A DNA stretch of 64,000 bases, from the NCBI GenBank assembly GCA_016841185.1, contig JAENZQ010000005.1, forward strand, positions 62,001 to 126,000, in the 5' to 3' direction. Every line of letters starts with the position of its first letter. Within the stretch, counting starts at the first letter, position 1. This DNA comes from Anaerovorax odorimutans. Lineage in GTDB: Bacteria; Bacillota; Clostridia; Peptostreptococcales; JAAYPU01. This document shows, piece by piece, positions 35,956-50,124 of the stretch. Made by a program: the position numbers and the translations under genes. The notes beneath the pieces are model-generated. The model saw nothing but the letters and a program-made list of their open reading frames with translations. It had not been told where the DNA came from and searched no databases.

Positions 35956-38190
35956 TTGTGTAAAGTTTCAATTATTATGACCAGCTATAATAAACCTAAA
36001 TATATAGGAAAGGCCATTGAGGGTGTTTTAAATCAAACTTTTAAGGACTTTGAACTGCTGTTGATGGATGATAACTCGGATGAAGAGACCCGGAATATCA
36101 TCCAGGGGTACTTAAAAGATAAACGAATAAGATATTACTGCAGCGATGTAACCAGTGTTGAAGAAAGAACTGAAAAAGTGCGTTATGCGGTATTGATCAA
36201 TAAGGCTTTGGATATGATTAAAGGTCAATATGTTTCTTATGCAACGGATGATAATGTCTACCGACCGGAACGTCTTGAAAAAATGGTTGATTTCATGGAC
36301 CGGCATCCGGAGGTAAAGATTGCTTATTCAAGTTCGAAAGTGCAGTATCTGGATAAGGATGGCGTTTTTGTAAGAAGCATTGAAAGAGAGGCTAAAGCAG
36401 AAACTTGGTTGGCACCATGTATGGTAGATCATTGTTCCATTATGCACAGAACAGATATTTTACCGGTTATTTTTGATAAGTGGGGTTCTTATTGGGATGA
36501 AGATCCTCAGTTTTATTTTCTTGGCGATGCCAGGTTTTTCTGGAGGCTCAACCATTTCTGGCCATTTCACCCAATTCATGAAATATTGGATGATAACTAT
36601 ATGACGGAAATATCCCTTCATACTCATATGAATTCTGAAGAGCACCCTTTGATTAAGCTTTTGCCGGAGCAGCGTATCTGTAAAGAAATAAGAGATTATT
36701 TAAGGTGTTTAAGGAAAGAAAACCTGGAGAAAGAGGAGAGGCGTTTAAAAGAAGAACAGTCACAGAAAGAAAAAAGCAACTATTTAGAGAATTACTGGCT
36801 GCTTTTTCTTGATTTCATAGATCTGTTTCATGAACTGATTTTTGAAAAGATCCCTTTACCGTTATTATCGAATTTTTATCAATATATTGATACTGACCTG
36901 CGTGAAGAGATGAAAAAAACATCTTTTAAAGAACATTTAACAAGAAAAAAAATTACTCTTAATGAAATACAGCCTCAATTTGAATGTTGGCTGCATTCCT
37001 TTAAACAGCCTGCAGCATGCAGACTATTGGATTCTTCAAAATGCAAGCCCATGAAGGGAAAGATATTGCTGAATCTTGAGTATCTGAGGTTTTCCCATAA
37101 TAGTTTTAAAGTTTATGATCCGGAAGAAACGATTATTTTCACTCAGTTTAAAAGAAAATTAGGTATTCCGGTTCATTGTATTCAGGATTATAAAGTTGAA
37201 GTTCAGGACTCAATAGATAAGCTTGTTAAAAGAGCTGAAAGTATTTTTTCACCTATTCAGAAGCATTATGTTTTACAAAATGATTTTTTTTCTCATTCAT
37301 TTTTGAACAATATTCCTAAAATGGTAGAGACAATAGCTGCAGTCAGAAAATATTTTCAGGATAATTTGATTTCTTGTGTTGTTGTAGGAACAACGGAAGA
37401 CTTAACCAGCCGCATTCTTACCATGGTAGCAGGTGAAAAAGGAATTCCCAGCATTTGCCTGCAGCATGGCATTTTAGGCGGAGAAGAAGCTTATCTGCCG
37501 GTATTTGCTACTGTTGAGGCGGTTTACGGCCAGTATGAAAAAGACTGGTATCGGGAAAGAGGGGTTTCTGAAGAATATATTGCGATTACAGGACATCCCC
37601 GGTTTGATGATATTTTTGATCAAAACCATATGCCAAAAGAAACATTCATAATGAAGTACGGTTTGGATGCCGGCAAAAAACATGTGCTCGTAGCAACGCA
37701 ACATATATGTTCGTCTTTATGCCGGGAATTTATTGATATTGCAGCGACGATACCGGGAATTGAGATCATTATTAAACCACATCCCTGGGAGCTCAATCAT
37801 GGAAATTATATAGAAGAATATAAAAATTTAGAAAACAAATATAAATCAGTGAAACTTATAGCGGAAAGAGGCGTGAATCTTTATGATCTATTGTCTAATA
37901 CAGATGTTGTCATCATCAATGCATCTACCGTAGGTCTGGAAGCTGTATTGGCCAATAAACCTTTATGTATACTGTATGAGGGGTCTTTTAAGTATTATGA
38001 CAGAATGGGCGATTTTAAATTTTCTAATCCTGCAAAATTGGCGGAGTTTATTCCCAGGTTGCTCAAGGACGAGGAATTACAAGAAAAATCAAAGGCGGTA
38101 AATCAGGAGTTTTTAGCATACGCTTATCCCCAGAGGCTGGCAGGGGGCTGTTTAATAGAAGAAATCAACAGGATAATCGGAAGAAAATAA
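35956..38190 (+). CDS. Two-domain glycosyltransferase: GT2 fused to an SpsB/CDP-glycerol-transferase-like domain
   Basis: TTG 35956 has GGAGGA 6 bases upstream. The 744-residue product begins with a GT2 domain (residues 1-235: VSIIMTSYNKPKYIGKAIEG, LLMDDNSDEETRNI, VSYATDDNVYRPERLE). A charged, coiled-coil-like linker at about 240-275 follows, then a 450-residue GT-B-like domain with ICLQHGILGGEEAYLP, ITGHPRFDDI, IIIKPHPWELNHGNY and INASTVGLEAVLANKPLCIL. The second half resembles polysaccharide-type transferases such as SpsB/TagF or KpsS. B. subtilis has adjacent separate spsA (GT2) and spsB genes, so this looks like their fusion. It is cytoplasmic or membrane-associated. Confidence 0.8.
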   Translation: MCKVSIIMTSYNKPKYIGKAIEGVLNQTFKDFELLLMDDNSDEETRNIIQGYLKDKRIRYYCSDVTSVEERTEKVRYAVLINKALDMIKGQYVSYATDDNVYRPERLEKMVDFMDRHPEVKIAYSSSKVQYLDKDGVFVRSIEREAKAETWLAPCMVDHCSIMHRTDILPVIFDKWGSYWDEDPQFYFLGDARFFWRLNHFWPFHPIHEILDDNYMTEISLHTHMNSEEHPLIKLLPEQRICKEIRDYLRCLRKENLEKEERRLKEEQSQKEKSNYLENYWLLFLDFIDLFHELIFEKIPLPLLSNFYQYIDTDLREEMKKTSFKEHLTRKKITLNEIQPQFECWLHSFKQPAACRLLDSSKCKPMKGKILLNLEYLRFSHNSFKVYDPEETIIFTQFKRKLGIPVHCIQDYKVEVQDSIDKLVKRAESIFSPIQKHYVLQNDFFSHSFLNNIPKMVETIAAVRKYFQDNLISCVVVGTTEDLTSRILTMVAGEKGIPSICLQHGILGGEEAYLPVFATVEAVYGQYEKDWYRERGVSEEYIAITGHPRFDDIFDQNHMPKETFIMKYGLDAGKKHVLVATQHICSSLCREFIDIAATIPGIEIIIKPHPWELNHGNYIEEYKNLENKYKSVKLIAERGVNLYDLLSNTDVVIINASTVGLEAVLANKPLCILYEGSFKYYDRMGDFKFSNPAKLAEFIPRLLKDEELQEKSKAVNQEFLAYAYPQRLAGGCLIEEINRIIGRK

Positions 38191-38208
38191 TAAAAAGGAA
38201 AATGATTT

Positions 38209-39141
38209 ATGAAATATATTTATAAACACGGATATAATGTCTCACGATTTACTCTGGGTACAGCTCAGTTTGGTTCGGATTATGGTATTGCAAACAAATA
38301 CGGAAAGCTTACAGAAAGAGAAATAAAAAAAGTTTTAGATAAGGCTTTTGAAAAAGGAATCAACTTAATAGATACTGCATCCTCTTATGGCGTAAGTGAA
38401 AAAACTATAGGAAATATTTTATGCAAGTCGCCGTATAAGTCCGGTGTTATTGTTGAAAGTAAATTACCTTACCTTAAGAATACAAATGATCTTCAAGCAC
38501 TGAATCGGGAAATAGAGCAGGCAGTTACCCGATCTCTTAACCGTCTCCGCTTGGATAGCCTGCCAATATATTTATTGCATGATGAAAACAACCTGTTTTT
38601 TTATGACGGGTATATCATCGATATTTTAAGGAAGGAAAAGAAGAAAGGAAAGATTAACCTTTTAGGCGTTTCGGTATATTCTACTGAAGCAGCAGAAGCA
38701 GCATTAGATAATTTGGAAATGCAGGTGATCCAAGTGCCTTTCAATCTTTTTGATCAAAGGTTGAATAAAATCAATTTTTTCAACAGAGCTGCAGAAAAAG
38801 GCAAATTGGTTTTGGTGAGGTCTGTTTTTTTGCAGGGATTATTTTTCATGGCAGAAGATGAAATTTTACCGGAAAAATTTTGCATATATTCTCCGTATTT
38901 TAAAAAACTGACGGAGATAGCGGATCATTATTGCTTTAAAGTTGGAGAATTAGCATTGAAATATGCCTGTCAAAAATCTCAGGGATCTGTAATTCTCGGA
39001 GTAGATAGCTGTAAACAATTGGAAGAAAATCTGAATTTTTGCTCTAATAAAAATAAACTGAATTCGGAGATTATAAAATCCATTGAAAAAGCCTTTCAGG
39101 ATATTCCTGTAAATTTAATAGACCCCAGAAAGTGGTGCTGA
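38209..39141 (+). CDS. Aldo/keto reductase
   Basis: The 310-residue TIM-barrel protein has FTLGTAQFGSDYGIA, GINLIDTASSYGVSEKTIGN (catalytic Asp and Tyr), VIVESKLPYL (Lys) and PIYLLHDENN (His), the full AKR tetrad, and the NADPH-site region SVILGVDSCKQLEENL. Such reductases accompany nonulosonic-acid and spore-polysaccharide clusters in Clostridia, where the substrate is unassigned. It lies 18 bases after the fused glycosyltransferase and 16 bases before an SDR gene, so the three form a unit. Confidence 0.87.
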   Translation: MKYIYKHGYNVSRFTLGTAQFGSDYGIANKYGKLTEREIKKVLDKAFEKGINLIDTASSYGVSEKTIGNILCKSPYKSGVIVESKLPYLKNTNDLQALNREIEQAVTRSLNRLRLDSLPIYLLHDENNLFFYDGYIIDILRKEKKKGKINLLGVSVYSTEAAEAALDNLEMQVIQVPFNLFDQRLNKINFFNRAAEKGKLVLVRSVFLQGLFFMAEDEILPEKFCIYSPYFKKLTEIADHYCFKVGELALKYACQKSQGSVILGVDSCKQLEENLNFCSNKNKLNSEIIKSIEKAFQDIPVNLIDPRKWC

Positions 39142-39157
39142 TATGAGGAGAGAGTCC

Positions 39158-39943
39158 ATGATAAGTGAATTATTTAGTCTAAGGGATCATATTGCGGTTG
39201 TGACCGGAGGTGCCGGATATTTGGGTTATCACATTTCCTCAGCCCTTGCTGAAGCCGGCGCACGTGTTTATATTGCCAGCTCAAATCATAAAAAATGTCA
39301 GGAGGCAGCAGAAAAAATATCCAAAGAGACAGATGCTTATGTTAAAGGAGTATTTACAGACATATGTTCCGTAAAAAAAATCCATGAAACATTTCAACAG
39401 ATTACGGCAGAAAATCAGAAGATTGATATACTAATTAACAATGCTGCCTTTAGCAGAGGAAAAGATTTGGATATGGAGGAAAAAGACTGGATGGCGGGTA
39501 TAGATGGAACCATTAACGGTGTTTTCAGGGCTACCCAGGCAGTGATACCCTTTATGGCTGAAAGTGGCGGGGGAACTATTGTTAATATTGCATCCATGTA
39601 TGGAATCGTTTCTCCGGATCCATGGCTTTATAATAAAGAAGAGTATGTGAATCCGCCGAACTATGGGGCCGGAAAAGCTGCAATTTTACAATTCACCCGT
39701 TATGCTGCCTGTCATCTGGGGACAAAGGGTATAAGGGTAAACGCCATATCTCCAGGACCTTTCCCTAAAACAGATATTCAGAAAGACAAAGAATTTATTG
39801 CTAATTTAGAAAAAAAAGTTCCCTTAGGGAGGATTGGCAGGCCGGATGAACTAAAAGGGGCAGTGGTTTTTCTGGCATCAGAGGCTTCAAGTTACGTTAC
39901 AGGGACGAATATTTGTGTTGACGGAGGTTGGACTGCATGGTAA
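39158..39943 (+). CDS. Short-chain dehydrogenase/reductase
   Basis: ATG 39158 follows GAGGAGAG; an in-frame ATG at 39143 precedes that site. The 261-residue SDR has the cofactor loop VVTGGAGYLGYHISSALAEA, INNAA, a catalytic Ser in NIASMYGIVS, YGAGKAAILQF with Tyr and Lys intact, and the C-terminal VTGTNICVDGGWTAW. It reduces or oxidises an unknown, probably sugar-derived, substrate in this locus (PtmA-like proteins of nonulosonic-acid clusters are comparable). Confidence 0.87.
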   Translation: MISELFSLRDHIAVVTGGAGYLGYHISSALAEAGARVYIASSNHKKCQEAAEKISKETDAYVKGVFTDICSVKKIHETFQQITAENQKIDILINNAAFSRGKDLDMEEKDWMAGIDGTINGVFRATQAVIPFMAESGGGTIVNIASMYGIVSPDPWLYNKEEYVNPPNYGAGKAAILQFTRYAACHLGTKGIRVNAISPGPFPKTDIQKDKEFIANLEKKVPLGRIGRPDELKGAVVFLASEASSYVTGTNICVDGGWTAW

Positions 39944-40128
39944 ACAGCTTCTGAATTGATTTCAGATTTGGGCATTTGAAGCAATTCTTTTATTCAGCAC
40001 ATATTATGTAAGTGAAAGAGAGCAATTTTTACAATTATAAACTGAAACTGACAGTAATTTAAAACATTTTCTACAATTATGAGAAACAGAATTATTAAAT
40101 TGCTTCATTACCTTTCAGGGGGAAGAAA

Positions 40129-41133
40129 ATGTTCTTTGAAAATAAAAAAATATTGATTATTGGAGGGACCGGTACCATCGGGGAAAGGTTACTCCAACAC
40201 ATTTTAGCAGAAAACCCCAACGTTGTAAGGATTTTAAGCAGAGATGAGCATAAGCAGTATATGCTGCAAAACAGCTTGGGGTCAAGGAGAGACATGCGCT
40301 ATTTAATCGGAGATGTAAGAGATTATGACCGGGTTTTAAGTGCGATGGAGGATATTGATTATGTATTTCATGTAGCCGCTTTGAAACATGTACCTGCCTG
40401 CGAATATAATCCGTATGAAGCAGTGCTGACAAATGTTGTGGGGACTAATAATGTAATAAAAGCTGCAAGAGAGCAGAATGTGAGAAAAGTCATATTTACC
40501 AGTTCGGACAAAGCCATTTCTCCTACCAATACCTATGGGGCTACCAAGCTGACAGCAGAGCGTATGCTTGTGGCTTCCGAAAATAATAAAGGAACCAGCA
40601 GAACGATTTTTTCAATTGTCAGATTTGGTAATGTCATAGGGTCACGTGGTTCGGTCATTCCTTTGTTTATCAACCAAATCGTAAATGATAAAAGGATAAC
40701 CGTTACCAACCAGGAAATGAGCCGGTTTATGATGACAATGAATCAGGCCACTCAATTGACTATAAAGGCCATGAAGGAAGCAAAAGGAGGAGAAATATTC
40801 GTTTTGAAAATGCCGGTTATCTTGTTACGGGATCTGGTCAGGGTAATCACAGAAGAAACCTGTAAAAAATACCATATAAATGCTGATGAAGTGAAAATTC
40901 AGGAAATTGGGATGCGACCGGGGGAAAAAATGTATGAAGAACTGATGACTTATGATGAGTCATTAACAGCGTGGGAATTACCGGATATGTTTGTTATTCC
41001 CTCTATAGAAGGAAGTCAGAAAGGCTATGAAAATGCCGTAAAGGCAAAAGAAGGAACTTACAGTTCCGCTAACCAGAAGGTTATCTTGCCGGAAGAGGTT
41101 AGAGAACTTATTGTAGAGCAGAATTTGATTTGA
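40129..41133 (+). CDS. pseB: UDP-N-acetylglucosamine 4,6-dehydratase (PseB/CapD type)
   Basis: The 334-residue extended SDR has IIGGTGTIGERLL, FHVAALKHVPACEYNP, the active-site run TSSDKAISPTNTYGATK (Asp-Lys pair plus YxxxK), IVRFGNVIGSRGSVIPLF and IGMRPGEKMYEELM. PseB converts UDP-GlcNAc to the 4-keto-6-deoxy-L-arabino sugar, the first step of pseudaminic acid. The surrounding PseC, PseG, PseH and PseI genes support that choice over CapD. A ribosome site GGGGG precedes the ATG. It starts the longest operon in the locus. Confidence 0.9.
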   Translation: MFFENKKILIIGGTGTIGERLLQHILAENPNVVRILSRDEHKQYMLQNSLGSRRDMRYLIGDVRDYDRVLSAMEDIDYVFHVAALKHVPACEYNPYEAVLTNVVGTNNVIKAAREQNVRKVIFTSSDKAISPTNTYGATKLTAERMLVASENNKGTSRTIFSIVRFGNVIGSRGSVIPLFINQIVNDKRITVTNQEMSRFMMTMNQATQLTIKAMKEAKGGEIFVLKMPVILLRDLVRVITEETCKKYHINADEVKIQEIGMRPGEKMYEELMTYDESLTAWELPDMFVIPSIEGSQKGYENAVKAKEGTYSSANQKVILPEEVRELIVEQNLI

Positions 41134-41147
41134 AGGAGGATTTTTAA

Positions 41148-42104
41148 GTGAAAATACTTGTGACCGGAGGGGCAGGATTTATTGGGAGATGGGTGGTCAA
41201 AAAACTTTTGGAAGATAAACATCAGGTTTGGGTATTGGATAATTTATCAAATGGAAGATGGGAGAATATAAATGAATTTATTAATAATTCTTATCCCCTT
41301 AATTTTATAAAAAAGGATATAAATAATGAGCAAGCCCTGGATGACCTTTTTAAAAATCAATTTGATCTCTGCTATCATTTGGCAGCAAGTATCAATGTTC
41401 AGGATAGTATTGATGATCCTAAAACCACTTTTGCCAACGATACCATTGGAACATTCAATGTCTTGGAAAAGTGCAGGATGTATTCTACCAAAATAGTTTT
41501 TATGAGCACCTGCATGGTTTATGATAAAGCGTATGACACCACAGGTATTACCGAAGAACATCCTGTTAAACCGGCTTCACCCTATGCAGGGTCAAAGATT
41601 GCTGCTGAAAACATGGTGCTTTCATACTATTATGCTTATGATTTACCTGCAGTCGTAATTCGCCCCTTTAATACCTATGGGCCTTTTCAGAAGAGCAGCG
41701 GTGAAGGGGGCGTCGTAGCGATATTTATCAAGAATAAGCTGACAAATGAGATTCTGAAAGTTTATGGTGACGGGATGCAAACCAGAGATTTATTGTATGT
41801 GGAGGACTGTGCCGAATTTGTAGTAAACTCAGGTTATTCGGATAAAGCAAACGGCCAGATTATTAATGCCGGAATTGGAAAGGATGTTACGATCAATGAA
41901 TTAGCCCGGCTGATTGCACAGAATGATGATAAGATTCAACATGTTACGCATATCCACCCCAAAAGTGAGATTCAAAAATTACTATGCAATTATAGCAAAG
42001 CAAAAAATATTTTGAATTGGGAACCAAAGATCAGCCTGGAAGAAGGTATCAAAAGAACAGAATATTGGATACTGGAGGAGATGTTCAATCATAGATATTC
42101 ATAA
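41148..42104 (+). CDS. NAD-dependent nucleotide-sugar epimerase/dehydratase
   Basis: GTG 41148 follows AAGGAGG. The 318-residue extended SDR shows TGGAGFIGRWVVKKLLED, CYHLAASINVQDSI, MSTCMVYDKAYD, SPYAGSKIAAENM (YxxxK) and VIRPFNTYGPFQK, then YGDGMQTRDLLYVEDCAEF. It is like UDP-glucose 4-epimerase or LegB-type dehydratases. In the middle of a pseB-pseC pair it might serve a second sugar nucleotide (for instance a legionaminic-type precursor). The substrate is uncertain. Its 3' end overlaps the expected start region of pseC. Confidence 0.85.
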   Translation: MKILVTGGAGFIGRWVVKKLLEDKHQVWVLDNLSNGRWENINEFINNSYPLNFIKKDINNEQALDDLFKNQFDLCYHLAASINVQDSIDDPKTTFANDTIGTFNVLEKCRMYSTKIVFMSTCMVYDKAYDTTGITEEHPVKPASPYAGSKIAAENMVLSYYYAYDLPAVVIRPFNTYGPFQKSSGEGGVVAIFIKNKLTNEILKVYGDGMQTRDLLYVEDCAEFVVNSGYSDKANGQIINAGIGKDVTINELARLIAQNDDKIQHVTHIHPKSEIQKLLCNYSKAKNILNWEPKISLEEGIKRTEYWILEEMFNHRYS

Positions 42105-43299
42105 AAACCAGCCGGCAATTATAGGAGGAGAACCTGTTAGAAAGCATTTCCTTCCTTATGGACGGCAGTGGCTGGATAAGGAAGATATTAAAGCTGTAAC
42201 AGAGGTACTTGAAGGAGATTATCTGACAACGGGGCCTGCCATTGAATGCTTTGAAAAAGAAATAGCAGAGTATACAGGGACCGGATATGCGGTTGCTTTT
42301 TCAAATGGGACTGCAGCCCTTCATGGTGCCTGTTTTGCAGCAGGTATTAAAGAAGGTGATGAAGTTATTACCACACCATTGACTTTTGCAGCCAGTGCAA
42401 ATTGTGTCCTTTATCAGGGAGGGACTCCGGTTTTTGCCGATGTAAGTTCCAAGACCTATAATATAGAGGCACAGGCTGTAGAAAGATCAATAACCAAAAA
42501 CACTAAAGCAATTATACCTGTTGACTTCACAGGTCAGCCTGCAGATATCGATGCAATAAAATCAATTGCAAAAGAGTATGATCTGGTAATAATCGAAGAT
42601 GCTGCCCATGCGTTAGGGGCAAAATATAAAAGTAAAAAAATAGGCGGGCTTAGCGATATGACCGTTTTCAGTTTTCATCCGGTAAAGCATATCACCACAG
42701 GAGAAGGGGGAATTGTTACCACAAATAATGAAAGCTATTGCCATAAACTGAAACAATTCAGAATTCACGGGATAACCAGAGAACCCGATGAATTAACCGT
42801 TTGTCAGGGCCCGTGGTACTATGAAATGAAGGAGCTGGGCTTTAATTATCGTATGACGGATATTCAAGCGGCTTTAGGAATCAGCCAGCTTAAAAAATTA
42901 GAAAGTTTTATTAAAATACGGCAGAATTATGCTCAAGCATATGATAACGCCTTCAGAGATATGGAAGAGATCATATGCCCTATGCAGCTTTCGGATACGG
43001 TTTCCAGTTGGCATTTATATGTCATTCGCTTAAAACCGGAAAAATTAAAAGTTGGGCGCCGGCAAATATTTGAGGCCCTGCAAAAAGAAAATATCGGTGT
43101 ACAGGTCCATTATATTCCGGTATATTACCATCCTTATTATCAGGCTTTGGGTTATTCCAAAGGCTTATGCCCCAATGCGGAAAAGCTTTATGAGGAAATA
43201 CTGACGCTACCTCTTTTTCCTGCAATGAGTATGCAGGATTTGAAGGATGTCATCCATGCTGTTGATAAAATAATATCTTATTATCGAAAGAGGATGTAA
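42088..43299 (+). CDS. pseC: UDP-4-keto-6-deoxy-amino-sugar aminotransferase PseC, with non-canonical start
   Basis: The aminotransferase homology extends upstream to IIGGEPVRKHFLPYGRQWLD, which fits the start of Firmicute PseC proteins, but the frame from 42016 to 42378 has no ATG, GTG or TTG. A perfect GGAGGAG at 42074-42080 points to ATC 42088 (or ATA 42091) as the start. TTG 42379 would delete about 97 residues including the YLTTGP and SNGTAALHGACF parts of the fold. The rest is complete: VIIEDAAHALGAKY, FSFHPVKHITTGEGG (PLP Lys), LGFNYRMTDIQAALG and VQVHYIPVYYHPYY. It would aminate the PseB product at C4. Possible explanations are a rare start codon, a start-codon mutation or a sequence error. 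Confidence 0.8.
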   Translation: MIDIHKNQPAIIGGEPVRKHFLPYGRQWLDKEDIKAVTEVLEGDYLTTGPAIECFEKEIAEYTGTGYAVAFSNGTAALHGACFAAGIKEGDEVITTPLTFAASANCVLYQGGTPVFADVSSKTYNIEAQAVERSITKNTKAIIPVDFTGQPADIDAIKSIAKEYDLVIIEDAAHALGAKYKSKKIGGLSDMTVFSFHPVKHITTGEGGIVTTNNESYCHKLKQFRIHGITREPDELTVCQGPWYYEMKELGFNYRMTDIQAALGISQLKKLESFIKIRQNYAQAYDNAFRDMEEIICPMQLSDTVSSWHLYVIRLKPEKLKVGRRQIFEALQKENIGVQVHYIPVYYHPYYQALGYSKGLCPNAEKLYEEILTLPLFPAMSMQDLKDVIHAVDKIISYYRKRM

Positions 43300-43304
43300 A
43301 GCCA

Positions 43305-44336
43305 ATGGGTATCATAGATAAAATACTCATACGCGCGGACGCTGCCAATAAAATAGGTACCGGACATGTAATGAGATGTTTTTCTCTGGCACAAGGTATA
43401 AAAGATGCCGGGACACAAGTGGCATTCCTCTGCTTTGAAATACCTGATAAACTGGAAAAACTACTTCAAAATGAAAAAATAGAATTGATCAAGGTTTCAG
43501 GTCTGATTATCGGAAGTAAAGAAGATGCCCGATTGACTTATGATTATGCTAAAAGACTGGGGGCTGACTGGATTATTGCCGACGGATATCGGTTTGGAGG
43601 GGATTACCAAAGATTTATTAAAGAGCAAGGGAAAAGATTGCTTGTTTTAGACGATTATGGCCATTCCGATTTTTATTATGCCGATATTATTCTGAATACG
43701 GGTTTGGATTCATATGACAATATGTATTCCAATAGAGAAGCCTATACATGCTTGCTGACAGGACCCAAATATATATCATTGCGGCGGGAATTTTTAAATA
43801 AAGAGAGAGAGAAAAGAGAAATCCCTGAACAGGGTAATAAGCTGTTGGTGACTATGGGTGGATCTGACCCCGAAGAAGTGACGATAAAAGTAGTAAAAGG
43901 ACTGAAAAATCTGGAAAATGATATACAGGTCAAGGTGGTGGGAGGGCCATCCTGCGTTTTTTTTCAAAAATTAAAGGATTTTGAGAAGGAAGGAAACATT
44001 TCAATCATACAGGATACGGAAGAAATGGCGGGTTTAATGGAATGGGCGGATATCGGAATTTCTGCAGGAGGCGGAACTCTGGCAGAGATGGCTTATATGG
44101 GATTACCCAGTATTATAATAAAAACGGCAGAAAACCAATATGCAAGCATCCTTTATGAAAAATACGGTGCTTCTTTGTATTTAGGAGATGCAGACAAAGT
44201 CAGTGAAGAGGAAATCAGCCGTTGTGTTAAGTTGCTGAGCTGGGATCCTAAAAAGCGCCTGCAAATGAGCGGAAATGGGAGAAAGCTTCTGGACGGAAAA
44301 GGCGGGCGGAGAATCTTTGAATACTTGAAACAATGA
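43305..44336 (+). CDS. pseG: UDP-sugar hydrolase PseG
   Basis: The 343-residue GT-B-fold protein shows ILIRADAANKIGTGHVMRCF with the catalytic His, WIIADGYRFGGDYQ, LVTMGGSDPEEVTIKVVKGL, and ISAGGGTLAEMAYMGLPSII, all typical of PseG/SpsG. PseG removes UDP from 2,4-diacetamido-2,4,6-trideoxy-altrose, giving the free sugar used by PseI. It lies 5 bases after pseC. The separate hydrolase is the hallmark of the pseudaminic rather than the sialic-acid route. Confidence 0.92.
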   Translation: MGIIDKILIRADAANKIGTGHVMRCFSLAQGIKDAGTQVAFLCFEIPDKLEKLLQNEKIELIKVSGLIIGSKEDARLTYDYAKRLGADWIIADGYRFGGDYQRFIKEQGKRLLVLDDYGHSDFYYADIILNTGLDSYDNMYSNREAYTCLLTGPKYISLRREFLNKEREKREIPEQGNKLLVTMGGSDPEEVTIKVVKGLKNLENDIQVKVVGGPSCVFFQKLKDFEKEGNISIIQDTEEMAGLMEWADIGISAGGGTLAEMAYMGLPSIIIKTAENQYASILYEKYGASLYLGDADKVSEEEISRCVKLLSWDPKKRLQMSGNGRKLLDGKGGRRIFEYLKQ

Positions 44337-44440
44337 AGAGTTAATTAAAGAACGCTGCATAAGGGCGGATTTTATTTTGTGTCAAATTTATTCAGAAGAC
44401 ATAAATATATCATATAAAATCATGTTAGGAGGGTGAAAGA

Positions 44441-45229
44441 GTGAATAGCAAGAAAAAGCATACCGCCTTAATTCTGGCAAGTTCAAGCGGGCTTGGCTTT
44501 GCAGCCGCGAAGGCTTTATGCGAGGATGGACACAATGTTATTATAGGCAGCAGAAGTGAAAGGCTTTATAATGCTGAAAAAGAATTAAAAATGATTCACA
44601 GCGAGGCAGGGATACTGGCTATTCCTACAGATGTAACACAAATTAAAGATTTGAATCATTTGGTTAATGAAAGCCAGGAAAAATTTAAAACAATAGATAT
44701 TCTGTTTACTAATGGACCCGGACCTAAGCCCGGAAACATAAATGAACTGGATCTTAAAGATTTTTCTAAAGCACATGATGACATACTATTTCCTGTCATA
44801 TACCTTGCTAAACGGCTGATTCCTGGAATGATATCAAATGGATGGGGGCGAATAATCATAAATACCTCTATTACGGCTAAAGAACCGTCTGAAAATATGG
44901 TTTTATCCAATATATATAGAGCGGCACTTGTGTCCTTTGCTAAAACCCTTTCAGCCCAATTGGCTGTTAAAAACATTACAGTCAATGCAGTTGGTCCGGC
45001 ATCTTTTAAAACCGAAAGAGCAGAGGAGCTTTTGCAGGAAATGTCCCGAAACCAGAGGCGGCATATTGACGAGATCGAAAGGGAGATAACTGAAAAACTG
45101 CCTATGAAGAGATATAACGATCCTGAAGAGTTTGGAAAAGTAGTTGCTTTTTTAGCCGGTGAAGCATCCAGTGCTTTAACAGGTTCATATATTGCAGTTG
45201 ATGGAGGTATGTCCCATGGCATATTTTAG
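44441..45229 (+). CDS. SDR-family protein lacking the usual Tyr-Lys pair
   Basis: GTG 44441 follows AGGAGGG. The 262-residue SDR has the cofactor loop ILASSSGLGFAAAKAL (TGxxxGxG replaced by ASSSGLG), TNGPGP in place of NNAG, and INTSITAKEPSENMVLSN around the active site. Aligning on the later AKTLS, the positions normally held by catalytic Tyr and Lys read Ser and Arg. The end TGSYIAVDGGMSHG is standard. Such variants occur in an FabG-like branch and may not be classical reductases. Its role in nonulosonate synthesis is unknown. Confidence 0.82.
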   Translation: MNSKKKHTALILASSSGLGFAAAKALCEDGHNVIIGSRSERLYNAEKELKMIHSEAGILAIPTDVTQIKDLNHLVNESQEKFKTIDILFTNGPGPKPGNINELDLKDFSKAHDDILFPVIYLAKRLIPGMISNGWGRIIINTSITAKEPSENMVLSNIYRAALVSFAKTLSAQLAVKNITVNAVGPASFKTERAEELLQEMSRNQRRHIDEIEREITEKLPMKRYNDPEEFGKVVAFLAGEASSALTGSYIAVDGGMSHGIF

Positions 45230-45266
45230 ATGACGAGCAGAATTCAATTATATGGGAGGCTTAATG

Positions 45267-47069
45267 ATGATAACTTTTAAAGTTGGCCGGCGGGGCATAG
45301 GTGAAAATGAGCCTATTTTTATTATTGCTGAGGCAGGGATTAATCACGCCGGCTCATTCAGTGAAGCGCAAGAAATGGTGGAAGCGGCAAAAAATGCAAA
45401 AGCAGACGCTGTTACTTTCCAGCATATTGCCTGGAATGAAATAAATAGTATAAATATGAGTATTGATGACAATAACGAATGGGATAATTGGCGGTTAACA
45501 GATCAACAAATAGCTCAATTGTTTAAGCAAGCCCACTTTTACAATATGGCTGTTACAGCATGTGTTGCTGATTTTGATTCTTTAGAGTTCATTGTAGAGG
45601 CAGGTGCTGATTTTATAAAGATTGTGAGTGGAGATATTACTTGCCATCCTTTTTTAGCGAAGTGTGCAGCTACCGGGCTGCCAATTTTTCTTTCCACAGG
45701 AAATGCATTGATTCAAGAGGTTGATACTGCTTTGAGAGTTATTGAAGAAGCAGGAGGGTCCAAAATAGTTCTTTATCACACAAACAGTAAATATCCGACG
45801 CCTCCTGATGAGGTAGATCTCAGAGCTCTGGAGGTTCTTAGAGCCTATAACTATCCAATCGGTTTTTGTGATCATACAGAAGGAACGGCGATTCCTCTGG
45901 CAGCTTCTGCCCTTGGTGCTCGGGTTATAGAAAAGCATTTTAGTCTGAACCCGGCAATCATAAGGCCGGATTATGAAGTATCCATTGGTCCGGAGGAGTT
46001 GAGACAATTTGTTTTTGATATAAGAACCATTGAAAAAGCATTAGGAGAACCCATTAAAAAACGGTACTCCGAAGGCGGTGGTTATATGTTGGTAAGAAGG
46101 TCTATTGCTGCGAGGGAAGATTTAAAAAAAGGCAGTTTGATCAAGGGGGAAGATTTAGCATATAAACGGCCGGGTACAGGTATATCTCCAATAGAAACTG
46201 AAACGGTTGTAGGAAATATTCTGGATTGTGATGTGAAAAAAGGAGAACTGTTAGCTGAAAACATGCTCAAAAGACCTGTTATTTCAATAGTGGTAATCTG
46301 CCGGTTAAAATCCACCAGATTACCCCAAAAAGCCCTTCTTTCTATTCATGGAGTTGCTTCAATTGAAAGATGCCTGATCAATTGTTTAGCCGTACCCAAT
46401 ATCAATCAGGTTGTGCTGGCGACTTCGTGCTTGGCTGAAGATGATCCTTTAGAGCAATTCACTATGGGAGGCAAAGTGAAAGTGCTGAGGGGTGATCCGG
46501 ATAATGTTGCAATGAGGATGGTGCAAGCAGCACAAGAAACACGAGCAGATATTGTCCTGCGGGTAACCGGTGACAGCCCTGCGGTATCACCTGAAATATT
46601 GAGGATTCTCATTGATGCACATTTAAAGACAGGAAAGGATCTGACATTACCGACAAAGGATCATGCACCCGGTACTTCGGCAGATGTCTATACGGTGGAA
46701 TCGCTTTATAACTTGTTAAGGCAAGAAAAACCCCTGACTCATACGGAATATTTATCCTTTTATTATCTTAATAATCCGGAAATTTTCTCAGTCAACAGAG
46801 TTGAGCTTGCTCAAGCATTCCGCTATCCACAGTGGCGGCTGACACTGGATGAGCAAAAGGATCTGGAGCTGCTTGATACCATATATTCCGGTTTGGATAT
46901 AAAAAGGGCACCACTGTATTTTGAAAAGCTGAGGGACTATTTATTGAACAATCCACAGATTCCTAAAATCAATTCTGATGTGTCACTGAAATGGGAAAAA
47001 AACAGACAGCTGAGCAAAGAAATATCAGAAGCAACAAATTTGAAGGTGAAATTTAATGAGCAAAATTGA
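45267..47069 (+). CDS. Fused nonulosonic-acid synthase (NeuB/SpsE-like) and cytidylyltransferase (SpsF/PseF-like)
   Basis: ATG 45267 follows GGGAGG by 7 bases. Of 600 residues, 1-250 are a NeuB-type TIM barrel (FIIAEAGINHAGSFSEAQEM, PIFLSTGNALIQEVD, YPIGFCDHTEGTAIPLAA, GARVIEKHFSLNPA). Residues about 270-333 are the SAF/antifreeze-like domain (RRSIAAREDLKKGSLIKGED). About 334-570 form a second domain with SIVVICRLKSTRLPQKALLS, VLRGDPDNVAMRMVQA, IVLRVTGDSPAVSPEI, the SpsF/CMP-sugar synthetase pattern. It should condense a hexosamine with phosphoenolpyruvate and then activate the product with CTP. B. subtilis has these as separate spsE and spsF. It overlaps pseH by 14 bases. Confidence 0.87.
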   Translation: MITFKVGRRGIGENEPIFIIAEAGINHAGSFSEAQEMVEAAKNAKADAVTFQHIAWNEINSINMSIDDNNEWDNWRLTDQQIAQLFKQAHFYNMAVTACVADFDSLEFIVEAGADFIKIVSGDITCHPFLAKCAATGLPIFLSTGNALIQEVDTALRVIEEAGGSKIVLYHTNSKYPTPPDEVDLRALEVLRAYNYPIGFCDHTEGTAIPLAASALGARVIEKHFSLNPAIIRPDYEVSIGPEELRQFVFDIRTIEKALGEPIKKRYSEGGGYMLVRRSIAAREDLKKGSLIKGEDLAYKRPGTGISPIETETVVGNILDCDVKKGELLAENMLKRPVISIVVICRLKSTRLPQKALLSIHGVASIERCLINCLAVPNINQVVLATSCLAEDDPLEQFTMGGKVKVLRGDPDNVAMRMVQAAQETRADIVLRVTGDSPAVSPEILRILIDAHLKTGKDLTLPTKDHAPGTSADVYTVESLYNLLRQEKPLTHTEYLSFYYLNNPEIFSVNRVELAQAFRYPQWRLTLDEQKDLELLDTIYSGLDIKRAPLYFEKLRDYLLNNPQIPKINSDVSLKWEKNRQLSKEISEATNLKVKFNEQN

Positions 47070-47622
47070 GCATTATAAATTGACAGACGTATCGGAAAAT
47101 CATAAAAAATTGATTTTAAATTGGCGTAATGCTGAGCATATCCGCAAAAATATGTTTGATGAACATGTGATCACAGAGGAAGAACATACCAGATGGTTCG
47201 AGAACCTTAAAACAGATAAAATGATCATTGGAAAAATTCTTTTATATAAAGGATTGCCCATAGGCTTTGTCAATTTTACCGATCTGGATTATAAAAACAA
47301 TAAAGGCTATTGGGGGTTTTACATTGGTGAAAGAAAAGCGCCTAAAGGTTCGGGAAAAGCGATGGCATTATTGGCTCTGGATTACGTTTTTGAAGAATTC
47401 AAGCTCAGAAAATTATGCTCCCAAATTTTTGAGTTTAATGAGATCAGTATTCGTTACCATTTAAAAATAGGTTTTTCAGAAGAAGGGAGGCTGAAACAGC
47501 ATATCTTTAGAAACAACAGATATTATGATGTGATTGAGATGGCATTGTTTAGAGAAGATTGGGAGCAGATTGAAGGAAAATTGTTAGAGGAGTTGGAAGG
47601 AACCTATGTTGAGGCAAATTAA
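47056..47622 (+). CDS. pseH: N-acetyltransferase PseH
   Basis: The 188-residue GNAT protein has LILNWRNAEHIRKNMFDEHV and EEHTRWFENLKTDK near the start, GFYIGERKAPKGSGKAMAL (acetyl-CoA loop) and KLCSQIFEFNEISIRYHLKI. This is the PseH/SpsD pattern. It acetylates the 4-amino group made by PseC. It overlaps the fused synthase gene by 14 bases and pseI by 17 bases, so translation of the three is likely coupled. Confidence 0.9.
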   Translation: MSKIEHYKLTDVSENHKKLILNWRNAEHIRKNMFDEHVITEEEHTRWFENLKTDKMIIGKILLYKGLPIGFVNFTDLDYKNNKGYWGFYIGERKAPKGSGKAMALLALDYVFEEFKLRKLCSQIFEFNEISIRYHLKIGFSEEGRLKQHIFRNNRYYDVIEMALFREDWEQIEGKLLEELEGTYVEAN

Positions 47623-48658
47623 CATTTATAACAGAAAAATCGGGGAGGGCTGCCCGCCTTTTATCATAGCTGAAATGTCCGGTAACCATAACCAGTCCCT
47701 AAAAAGAGCATTGCAGATCGTTGAGGAAGCGGCCAAAGCAGGTGCACATGCTTTGAAACTGCAGACCTACACGGCTGACACCATGACTCTTGATATCCAT
47801 AGTGGGGATTTTCGTATCCATGATTCTGAGAGCCTGTGGAAAGGATATTCCCTTTACGATCTTTATAAAGAGGCTTATACACCCTGGGAGTGGCATAAAC
47901 CGATATTCGAACGTTGTAAAGAACTGGGGATCATTGCATTCAGCACGCCTTTTGATGAAAGTGCAGTAGACTTTTTAGAAACATTGGAAGTACCCTGTTA
48001 TAAGATTGCTTCTTTTGAGAATACAGATGTCTCGCTGATTCGTAAGGCAGCCGGAACCGGAAAACCTATGATTATTTCAACCGGAATGGCTACGGCAGCT
48101 GAATTGGATGAGGCCGTGAGAACTGCCAGAAAATCCGGCTGTAAAGATCTGATTTTGCTCAAATGCACCAGCTCTTATCCGGCTTCTCCGGAAAATTCAA
48201 ATATCCTGACCATTCCCCATTTGCGGCAGGCTTTTGACTGCGAGGCCGGCCTGTCAGATCATACATTGGGCATTGGTGTTGCAGTTGCAAGTATCGCTCT
48301 GGGGGCGACTGTCATAGAGAAGCATTTTACCCTGAACAGAGCGGAAGGCGGTGTGGATTCAGCTTTTTCTCTTGAACCTGAAGAAATGAAACAACTGGCA
48401 GGTGAGGCCTATCGGGCTTGGCAGGGCTTAGGGAAGGTATCTTATGGTCCTTTGAAGGATGAAGAAAAGTCATTGGATTTGAGAAGATCGTTGTATATTA
48501 CCCAGGATATGCAGAAGGGTGATTTTTTTTCAAAAGACAATCTTCGCCCCATTCGACCCGGGTTGGGGCTGCCGCCTAAATACTATGATGTGCTTATTGG
48601 TAAGCAGGTAAATCAGGATGTTAGAAAGGGTACACCAATGAGCTGGAAGCTGATATAG
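47606..48658 (+). CDS. pseI: Pseudaminic acid synthase PseI
   Basis: The 350-residue protein has FIIAEMSGNHNQSLKRALQI, ALKLQTYTADTMTLDI, GIIAFSTPFDESAVDFLE, CYKIASFENTDVSLIRKA, LLKCTSSYPASPENSN and AGLSDHTLGIGVAVASIALG, followed by VIEKHFTLNRAEGGVDSAFS and a SAF domain (RRSLYITQDMQKGDFF). The EGGVDSAFS region is characteristic of PseI compared with NeuB. It condenses the PseG product with phosphoenolpyruvate. It is the last gene of the operon. Confidence 0.93.
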   Translation: MLRQINIYNRKIGEGCPPFIIAEMSGNHNQSLKRALQIVEEAAKAGAHALKLQTYTADTMTLDIHSGDFRIHDSESLWKGYSLYDLYKEAYTPWEWHKPIFERCKELGIIAFSTPFDESAVDFLETLEVPCYKIASFENTDVSLIRKAAGTGKPMIISTGMATAAELDEAVRTARKSGCKDLILLKCTSSYPASPENSNILTIPHLRQAFDCEAGLSDHTLGIGVAVASIALGATVIEKHFTLNRAEGGVDSAFSLEPEEMKQLAGEAYRAWQGLGKVSYGPLKDEEKSLDLRRSLYITQDMQKGDFFSKDNLRPIRPGLGLPPKYYDVLIGKQVNQDVRKGTPMSWKLI

Positions 48659-48783
48659 CAGCAAGTTATTATTTAAAGTTGAAGAATGATACAGGTCTGT
48701 GATATAACATTCATATACAGTAGTTTTCTATTTTATCTATAATTTCGACTCTTTGATTAGCCAAAGGGCAGGAGGCGGATTTT

Positions 48784-50124
48784 ATGAAAAAGCACGGTAA
48801 TGCATTATTAATAATTGGTTTATTTCTGATACTGAACCTGTATCTGATATTTATACGGAGGACCGGTTCAAATCCTGATTTATACGGTGGATTAAACGGT
48901 TTGTACGCCATGATGACAGAGCATACCAGATGGCTCTTGCAGGAATACTCTTTCGCATGGACGGGTCTAATTGTTTTCTGTATGCTTTTTGGTGTGCTTG
49001 CCACTGTGATTTTATATCAGCTGATGTTGTGGATTCGGATAAAAGAAAGTAAATATTTTTTTTCCTTATTGTTTTTTTTATTTTTACTTATCCATCAGAC
49101 TATTGCATCAGGATTCATTTCATTTATTAATATTAAGGCGGACAAGTATCTGTATGAAAACATCGATGTTTTAATGAATTTTCTTATGCTGTCTTTTATT
49201 TCTTTTGCCTGTTCATTTTTAAGTACTTCTGTTAAAACACCAGGCTACCATAAAATTTTGCGTGTTTTTCAATTTATGCATTTCATAAATATTTTGTTAT
49301 GGGTGACAAGCGCAGGGATGAATTGGAGCATATCCGTAAATACATATCTGTTGCTTATAACAGAATGGACGATCATTTCCAGAGTGAGTATACTTGCTAA
49401 ACGGGATAAAGCAGCAAAGATATTCTTTATTGCAATAATGGTCCTGTTGGCAGGGTTTGTTTCCGAGATTTTCTGCAAGGAGGTTTCAGTCCATGCTTTG
49501 CTGATTGCTTCTGCTGTGGCTTCTATTTTGATTGCATATTCCTTCATGGAACAGTTGTTTTTTATCCATGATAAAAATGTTCAATTTGAACAAGTTGAAA
49601 AATCTTTAACTGAGCTAAGTCTTACAGACGAATTGTCCCAATTATATAACAGAAGATTTTTTAACGAGAAGATTAAATATGAGGTTGAAAGGGCCCATCG
49701 TGAAAATAAGCCCCTTTCTCTTTTGCTATTGGATATCGATCACTTTAAAGATTATAATGATGCCTATGGACACCCGGAAGGGGATAAGGCCATTATGAAA
49801 ATTGGAAAAATTATTAAAAGAAATATAAGAGATACCGACTATGCCTGCCGGGTTGGAGGAGAAGAGTTTGCCATTATTCTCACCGGAACAAATAAGTATG
49901 CGGCAGAAAAACATGTGGCAGAGCGACTTCATTCAAGTTTATCCAGACAGGTTTTTATGATAATGCGAAACAGAAAAGTACTTCTCACCGTAAGTATCGG
50001 TATCGGGCAGCTTCAGAAGGAGGAAAATGCGGACAGCCTCATTGGACATACGGACAAAGCAATGTATAAGGCTAAGGAATTAGGACGAAACCGGACTGTT
50101 TTGTACGATGAGAACCTCAAATAA
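48784..50124 (+). CDS. Membrane-bound GGDEF diguanylate cyclase
   Basis: About the first 265 residues are a membrane domain with seven or eight hydrophobic helices, of unrecognised type. The GGDEF domain follows (LTDELSQLYNRRFFNEKI, LLLDIDHFKDYNDAYGHPEG, CRVGGEEFAIIL). The active-site GGEEF and the Mg-binding Asp residues are intact. RDTD lies five residues before GGEEF, forming a complete RxxD inhibitory site. It should make c-di-GMP with product feedback, sensing an unknown membrane signal. A strong GGAGG lies before the ATG. It is a single gene between the polysaccharide and germination loci. Confidence 0.9.
   Translation: MKKHGNALLIIGLFLILNLYLIFIRRTGSNPDLYGGLNGLYAMMTEHTRWLLQEYSFAWTGLIVFCMLFGVLATVILYQLMLWIRIKESKYFFSLLFFLFLLIHQTIASGFISFINIKADKYLYENIDVLMNFLMLSFISFACSFLSTSVKTPGYHKILRVFQFMHFINILLWVTSAGMNWSISVNTYLLLITEWTIISRVSILAKRDKAAKIFFIAIMVLLAGFVSEIFCKEVSVHALLIASAVASILIAYSFMEQLFFIHDKNVQFEQVEKSLTELSLTDELSQLYNRRFFNEKIKYEVERAHRENKPLSLLLLDIDHFKDYNDAYGHPEGDKAIMKIGKIIKRNIRDTDYACRVGGEEFAIILTGTNKYAAEKHVAERLHSSLSRQVFMIMRNRKVLLTVSIGIGQLQKEENADSLIGHTDKAMYKAKELGRNRTVLYDENLK

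Follow-up and report, generated by a model that had tools for sequence, protein, structure and literature searches.

We find that pseC, the gene for the transaminase of the pseudaminic acid pathway in Anaerovorax odorimutans, has no ATG, GTG, or TTG codon where its translation should begin. The gene is intact, and its start in this lineage is probably a non-canonical ATC at position 42088 that is placed by a Shine-Dalgarno (SD) site and initiates weakly. Coordinates without a prefix refer to the window, the whole 64,000-nucleotide stretch of DNA that was analyzed. The gene and its first canonical start codon are as follows.

42088..43299, + strand: pseC, UDP-4-amino-4,6-dideoxy-N-acetyl-beta-L-altrosamine transaminase; 403 codons and a stop codon, counted from ATC 42088
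42379..42381, + strand: TTG, the earliest canonical start in the pseC frame, 97 codons into the gene and inside the conserved PFAM/TIGR region; not a credible start

The open reading frame extends from stop to stop over 42016..43299 on the + strand (427 codons). From the preceding TGA at 42013 as far as TTG 42379, the first in-frame ATG, GTG, or TTG, it holds none of these three codons, in agreement with the original prediction. The TTG cannot start a working enzyme, because it lies well within the conserved region. The assignment to pseC, likewise made in that prediction, is borne out by 511 bits against TIGR03588 (cut-off, 423.5) over model positions 1 to 379 of 380, and the protein also scores 418 bits against PF01041. 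The PLP-binding lysine is kept (FHPVKH), and zero deviations at 71 near-invariant columns make this the cleanest of 132 aligned sequences, which indicates that pseC is, on sequence grounds, a gene under selection and not a decaying one. The TIGR03588 match opens at 42148, and relatives with an N-terminal AI.GG.PVR motif can be aligned to pseC from approximately 42112 to 42115; homology had been claimed to begin near 42109, which is right but for a few bases.

The gene is found in a pseudaminic acid neighborhood, in which pseB-like, pseG, pseH, and pseI genes form one cluster of open frames.

40129..41133, + strand: PseB-like UDP-GlcNAc 4,6-dehydratase (TIGR03589, 318.8 bits, below the cut-off of 407.75)
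41148..42104, + strand: NAD-dependent sugar epimerase/dehydratase gene, overlapping pseC by 17 nt, its end holding the pseC SD site
43305..44336, + strand: PseG (TIGR03590, 207.7 bits versus 153.55)
47056..47622, + strand: PseH (TIGR03585, 135.7 bits versus 93.1)
47606..48658, + strand: PseI (TIGR03586, 499.9 bits versus 340.25)

Taken as sequence evidence, the conservation of PseC and the open neighboring pse genes argue against a long-standing loss of function, but not against a recent mutation of the start. The epimerase/dehydratase gene at 41148-42104 is an extra member between pseB and pseC; the order pseB-epimerase-pseC also occurs in three loci from distant phyla (L008, L039, and L098), and the order epimerase-pseC in L012. 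A further observation concerns 45252-47069 of the window, where a NeuB-type synthase is fused to a CMP-sugar cytidylyltransferase domain, with the separate standard PseI at 47606-48658 in the same cluster.

Several codons around the junction with the epimerase gene come into question as the start, and one SD site lies ahead of them.

42074..42083, + strand: SD site GGAGGAG(ATG) of pseC, duplex of -11.8 kcal/mol
42088..42090, + strand: ATC, proposed start codon, 9 nt after GGAGG; coding signal from 42091; inside the range of orthologue starts
42091..42093, + strand: ATA, second choice, 12 nt from GGAGG
42097..42099, + strand: ATT, third choice, 18 nt from GGAGG and too distant from the SD site

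We checked the GGAGGAG at 42074-42080 and found it, as had been described, with 7 nt between it and ATC 42088; counted from the GGAGG core the gap is 9 nt. With the anti-SD sequence assumed to be that of Firmicutes, GGAGG and GAT can pair with it with one mismatch, and on the same assumption the duplex ranks in the strongest third of genes (first sample), which is not exceptional. Gaps in 274 SD-led NTG genes of this genome have their mode at 7, with 36 of the 274 at 9 and 3 at 12. GGAGG precedes 0.13% of in-gene ATN codons by 8 to 9 nt, and the chance of such a match among the three or four ATN candidates of pseC is approximately 0.5%. A coding scan trained on the genome itself sees the signal begin at around 42091. 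On SD gap, coding signal, and orthologue starts together, ATC 42088 appears to be the best candidate, because a gap of 9 is common and one of 12 rare, and because AI.GG.PVR relatives start at the equivalent place; the original choice of ATC as the best-placed codon is therefore retained. An N-terminus of (M)IDIHK, or (M)IDIHKNQPAIIGG, would match initiation there.

The SD site falls in the terminal codons of the epimerase gene, and its GGAGGAG could be partly coincidence, as it encodes Glu-Glu (within Leu-Glu-Glu) of the upstream protein. The epimerase stop, TAA at 42102-42104, lies 14 nt past ATC 42088, and the resulting 17-nt overlap belongs to phase 1, which among long overlaps is commoner than phase 2 (PMC10666635). 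An ATG nearby, at 42081, belongs to the frame of the upstream gene and is only 2 nt from GGAGG. With 53% of genes having more RNA structure at the start, pseC is average in this respect and gives no hint of a structural switch, and no Rfam elements were found in 36000-50000.

Among orthologues, 134 were usable for the comparison of starts (135 minus one cut by a contig end), and none of them has a non-canonical start, each carrying a canonical one ahead of the core. Where the AI.GG.PVR motif is present, the closest ATG lies between residues -7 and 7, most often at -1 and at 5-6, if ATC 42088 is numbered 1. The closest syntenic relative, G042 (66% identity in PseC and 73% in the epimerase), starts pseC with GTG. 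Since all 134 usable orthologues are canonical, the ATC start appears from these alignments to be lineage-specific, and most likely a recent substitution turned an ancestral NTG start into it. The ATC cannot be dated, because the closest genomes, G001 and G002 of the same family, lack a pseC orthologue; a search of IMG/VR for this junction, allowing either base at 42090/42093, gave no match. The suggestion that low-level initiation would throttle the pathway fared less well: an evolved, conserved throttle is without support, because the ATC is lineage-specific, and the throttle reading of the pseC start is unproven.

A survey of 1.48 Mb (41%) of the same genome, sampled as stretches and comprising 1,164 genes closed at the 5′ end, places pseC in a wider setting. 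It is the strongest outlier of the 1,164: ahead of its first canonical start codon the coding signal runs over 96 codons and amounts to 31 bits, against 13 bits in the next gene. The idea that it is the sole gene of this kind in the genome was dropped, as RNase Y, an NfeD-like gene, and a Na/Pi symporter also lack a well-placed NTG. With infC, they are the four further ATN-start genes that emerge from the survey and its follow-up, giving roughly 5 ATN starts per 1,164 genes.

L333:10155-11699 (G000:C13), - strand: RNase Y (rny), AAAGGAGGTGTATCAAT-ATT, gap of 9, without a usable NTG start
L123:9821-10276 (G000:C14), + strand: NfeD-like gene, GGGAGGTGATTTATT-ATA, gap of 9, without NTG at the site
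L136:11323-12969 (G000:C71), - strand: Na/Pi symporter, GGAGGAGATTGAA-ATC, gap of 8, no canonical start ahead of the conserved core

The infC gene starts with ATT at an SD gap of 8, a pattern that recurs in relatives. For RNase Y, G001 and G002 share this arrangement, and many members of the order’s other families have ATT, ATA, or ATC at that place with no NTG suitably placed, whereas in family f10 ATG or GTG stands there in most of the sampled members; going by these alignments, the non-canonical start of RNase Y is probably conserved. Across the relatives in L344-L372, ATT, ATA, or ATC stands behind AAAGGAGGTGT in several families of the order. Orthologues of the NfeD-like gene in G001, G007, G013, G018, G029, and G056 have ATA or ATT and no NTG at the site. 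Counting its relatives in L250-L254 and L268, ATA or ATT is conserved as the start (reading Ile-Phe-Gly or the like) across seven genomes of several families, with no canonical start at the site. The symporter of G001 (L220, 83% identical) has ATA 8 nt after GGAGG and no well-placed NTG, its in-frame GTG being upstream of the SD site; more distant relatives have an ATG two codons upstream. For pseC itself, the relatives show no conserved non-canonical start (0 of 134 usable orthologues), but lineage-specific cases, such as citZ of Staphylococcus aureus, are nonetheless known. Left out of the count were two prophage tail loci (L118) and a decarboxylase-like open reading frame at L312:14252, which look like prophage or frameshift cases; the latter (L312:14252-15355, + strand, G000:C62) has an N-terminal part that runs on upstream in another frame, a pseudogene or an indel error. 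We regard it as an unlikely, though conceivable, extension that infC, RNase Y, the NfeD-like gene, the Na/Pi symporter, and pseC form a group of SD-plus-ATN starts (gap, 8 to 9 nt) whose translation co-varies with IF3 activity, with pseC as a recent joiner.

Two other readings take the missing start as a defect. One wrong base in the reads or the assembly, probably within 42088-42090 or 42091-42093, may have replaced a normal start: one substitution is enough to restore a canonical codon, all 134 usable orthologues have one, and this draft genome consists of 88 contigs, with one frameshifted decarboxylase-like gene in the sampled part, so that indel errors or pseudogenes may exist. However, start codons make up only approximately 0.24% of the sampled bases, where a stray substitution rarely lands, just one of the 1,164 genes is clearly split once prophage-like loci are set aside, and the four other ATN-start genes are explained by biology. 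We therefore consider such an error improbable, because of those genes and because a substitution seldom hits a start codon; it had been proposed as the plain alternative, but with four other ATN-start genes in 1.48 Mb it is no longer the plain choice. It is also unlikely, though somewhat less so, that a recent start mutation nearly silenced pseC, leaving the surface sugar pathway off or very low in a first stage of decay. The loss of an NTG start in this lineage specifically would fit, and a 40% identical transaminase at C14:63124-64284 could in principle substitute, although its score of 371 is below the PseC cut-off of 423.5. Yet pseC carries no damage (0 of 71 columns), the pseB, pseG, pseH, and pseI frames are open, and AUC initiation is low but useful in other bacteria.

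The remaining readings keep the gene working and move its start or its frame. Initiation at ATA 42091 in place of ATC 42088 is very unlikely: the maximum of the coding signal begins exactly there and AUA outdid AUU in a Listeria reporter (PMC13068326), but its SD gap of 12 is rare (3 of 274), and the other ATN-start genes have 8 to 9. A start further in would give a shorter protein without IIDIHKNQPAIIGG, either from GTT 42136, with GGAGG 7 nt ahead of it in a second GGAGGAG at 42124, or from TTG 42379. The AI.GG.PVR extension is absent from many PseC proteins and a GTC start is known in Streptomyces sigR (PMC5472188), but the GGAGGAG at 42124 encodes the conserved Gly-Gly of the motif and is hence expected anyway, the coding signal extends upstream of GTT 42136, and a start at TTG 42379 would remove 97 conserved residues, all of which makes this reading highly improbable. 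Least probable of all is a +1 ribosomal frameshift or one-base indel by which the upstream gene, in whose frame ATG 42081 lies, would be joined to pseC; the frames do overlap at 42088-42104, but no recognized slippery site precedes TAA 42102, no relative shows such a fusion, the epimerase having its own stop in L008, L039, and L098, and GGAGG is just 2 nt away from ATG 42081. The missing slippery site, the separate stops in relatives, and the upstream coding signal led us to reject both frameshift fusion and starts further downstream.

Under the preferred start at ATC 42088, the 30S subunit would be positioned by the GGAGGAG site, 9 nt upstream counted from its core, and fMet-tRNA would read the AUC inefficiently. 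Ribosomes terminating on the epimerase gene would probably lift local initiation on pseC, and PseC would be made at a lowered level, with IF3 discriminating against AUN codons. We infer the use of ATC itself, the coupling, and the sensitivity of pseC to IF3 from these features, and the lower yield from published measurements on other bacteria, in which the literature backs each of these steps.

Since a few other genes of this genome also begin at ATT, ATC, or ATA, the ATC start of pseC is probably real, a further example of a rare class already known. Gene callers limited to ATG, GTG, and TTG would shorten pseC by approximately 97 residues or call it broken, and automatic annotation would miss or misplace the conserved ATT/ATA starts of RNase Y and the NfeD-like gene across several families of the order. 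Use of ATC would mean a low yield for the step that follows PseB, which could limit surface pseudaminic acid. The wider ATN pattern in this genome may be worth more attention than pseC.

Rare ATN starts of the kind seen in infC had been cited in the original prediction, and the comparison holds within this very genome, whose infC has ATT at nearly equal spacing. The infC gene, which begins with ATT, ATC, or ATA, is however self-regulated by IF3 and widely conserved, whereas PseC plays no part in initiation and a feedback loop is therefore not expected. In Listeria monocytogenes, rnhC begins at ATC, and changing the ATG of rsbW, which overlaps rsbV by 17 bp, to ATA or ATT lowers but does not abolish translation (PMC13068326). 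These are, like pseC, ATN starts in Gram-positive bacteria, and the rsbW overlap equals that of pseC in length, but they were tested by experiment in other genes, and the rsbW changes were selected under acid stress. The six fixed ATN cases per 2,265 conserved genes in that species (PMC13068326) are similar in size to the rate found here. In Staphylococcus aureus, AUU and AUA starts with extended SD sequences give about 10% of the AUG level; genes with such start codons there include ccpN (AUA), cvfC1 (AUU), and citZ (AUA, in the NCTC 8325 lineage only) (PMC13009471). These genes share with pseC an ATN codon behind a good SD, and citZ is also a lineage-specific case in a metabolic gene; they were mapped by ribosome profiling and reporters, and ccpN and cvfC1 are conserved, unlike the ATC of pseC, which is known from sequence. 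Finally, sigR of Streptomyces, with its IF3-repressed GTC start (PMC5472188), can be likened to pseC as a non-canonical start that holds one gene of an operon low relative to its neighbor, although its codon is GTC and not ATC and its regulatory role is proven.
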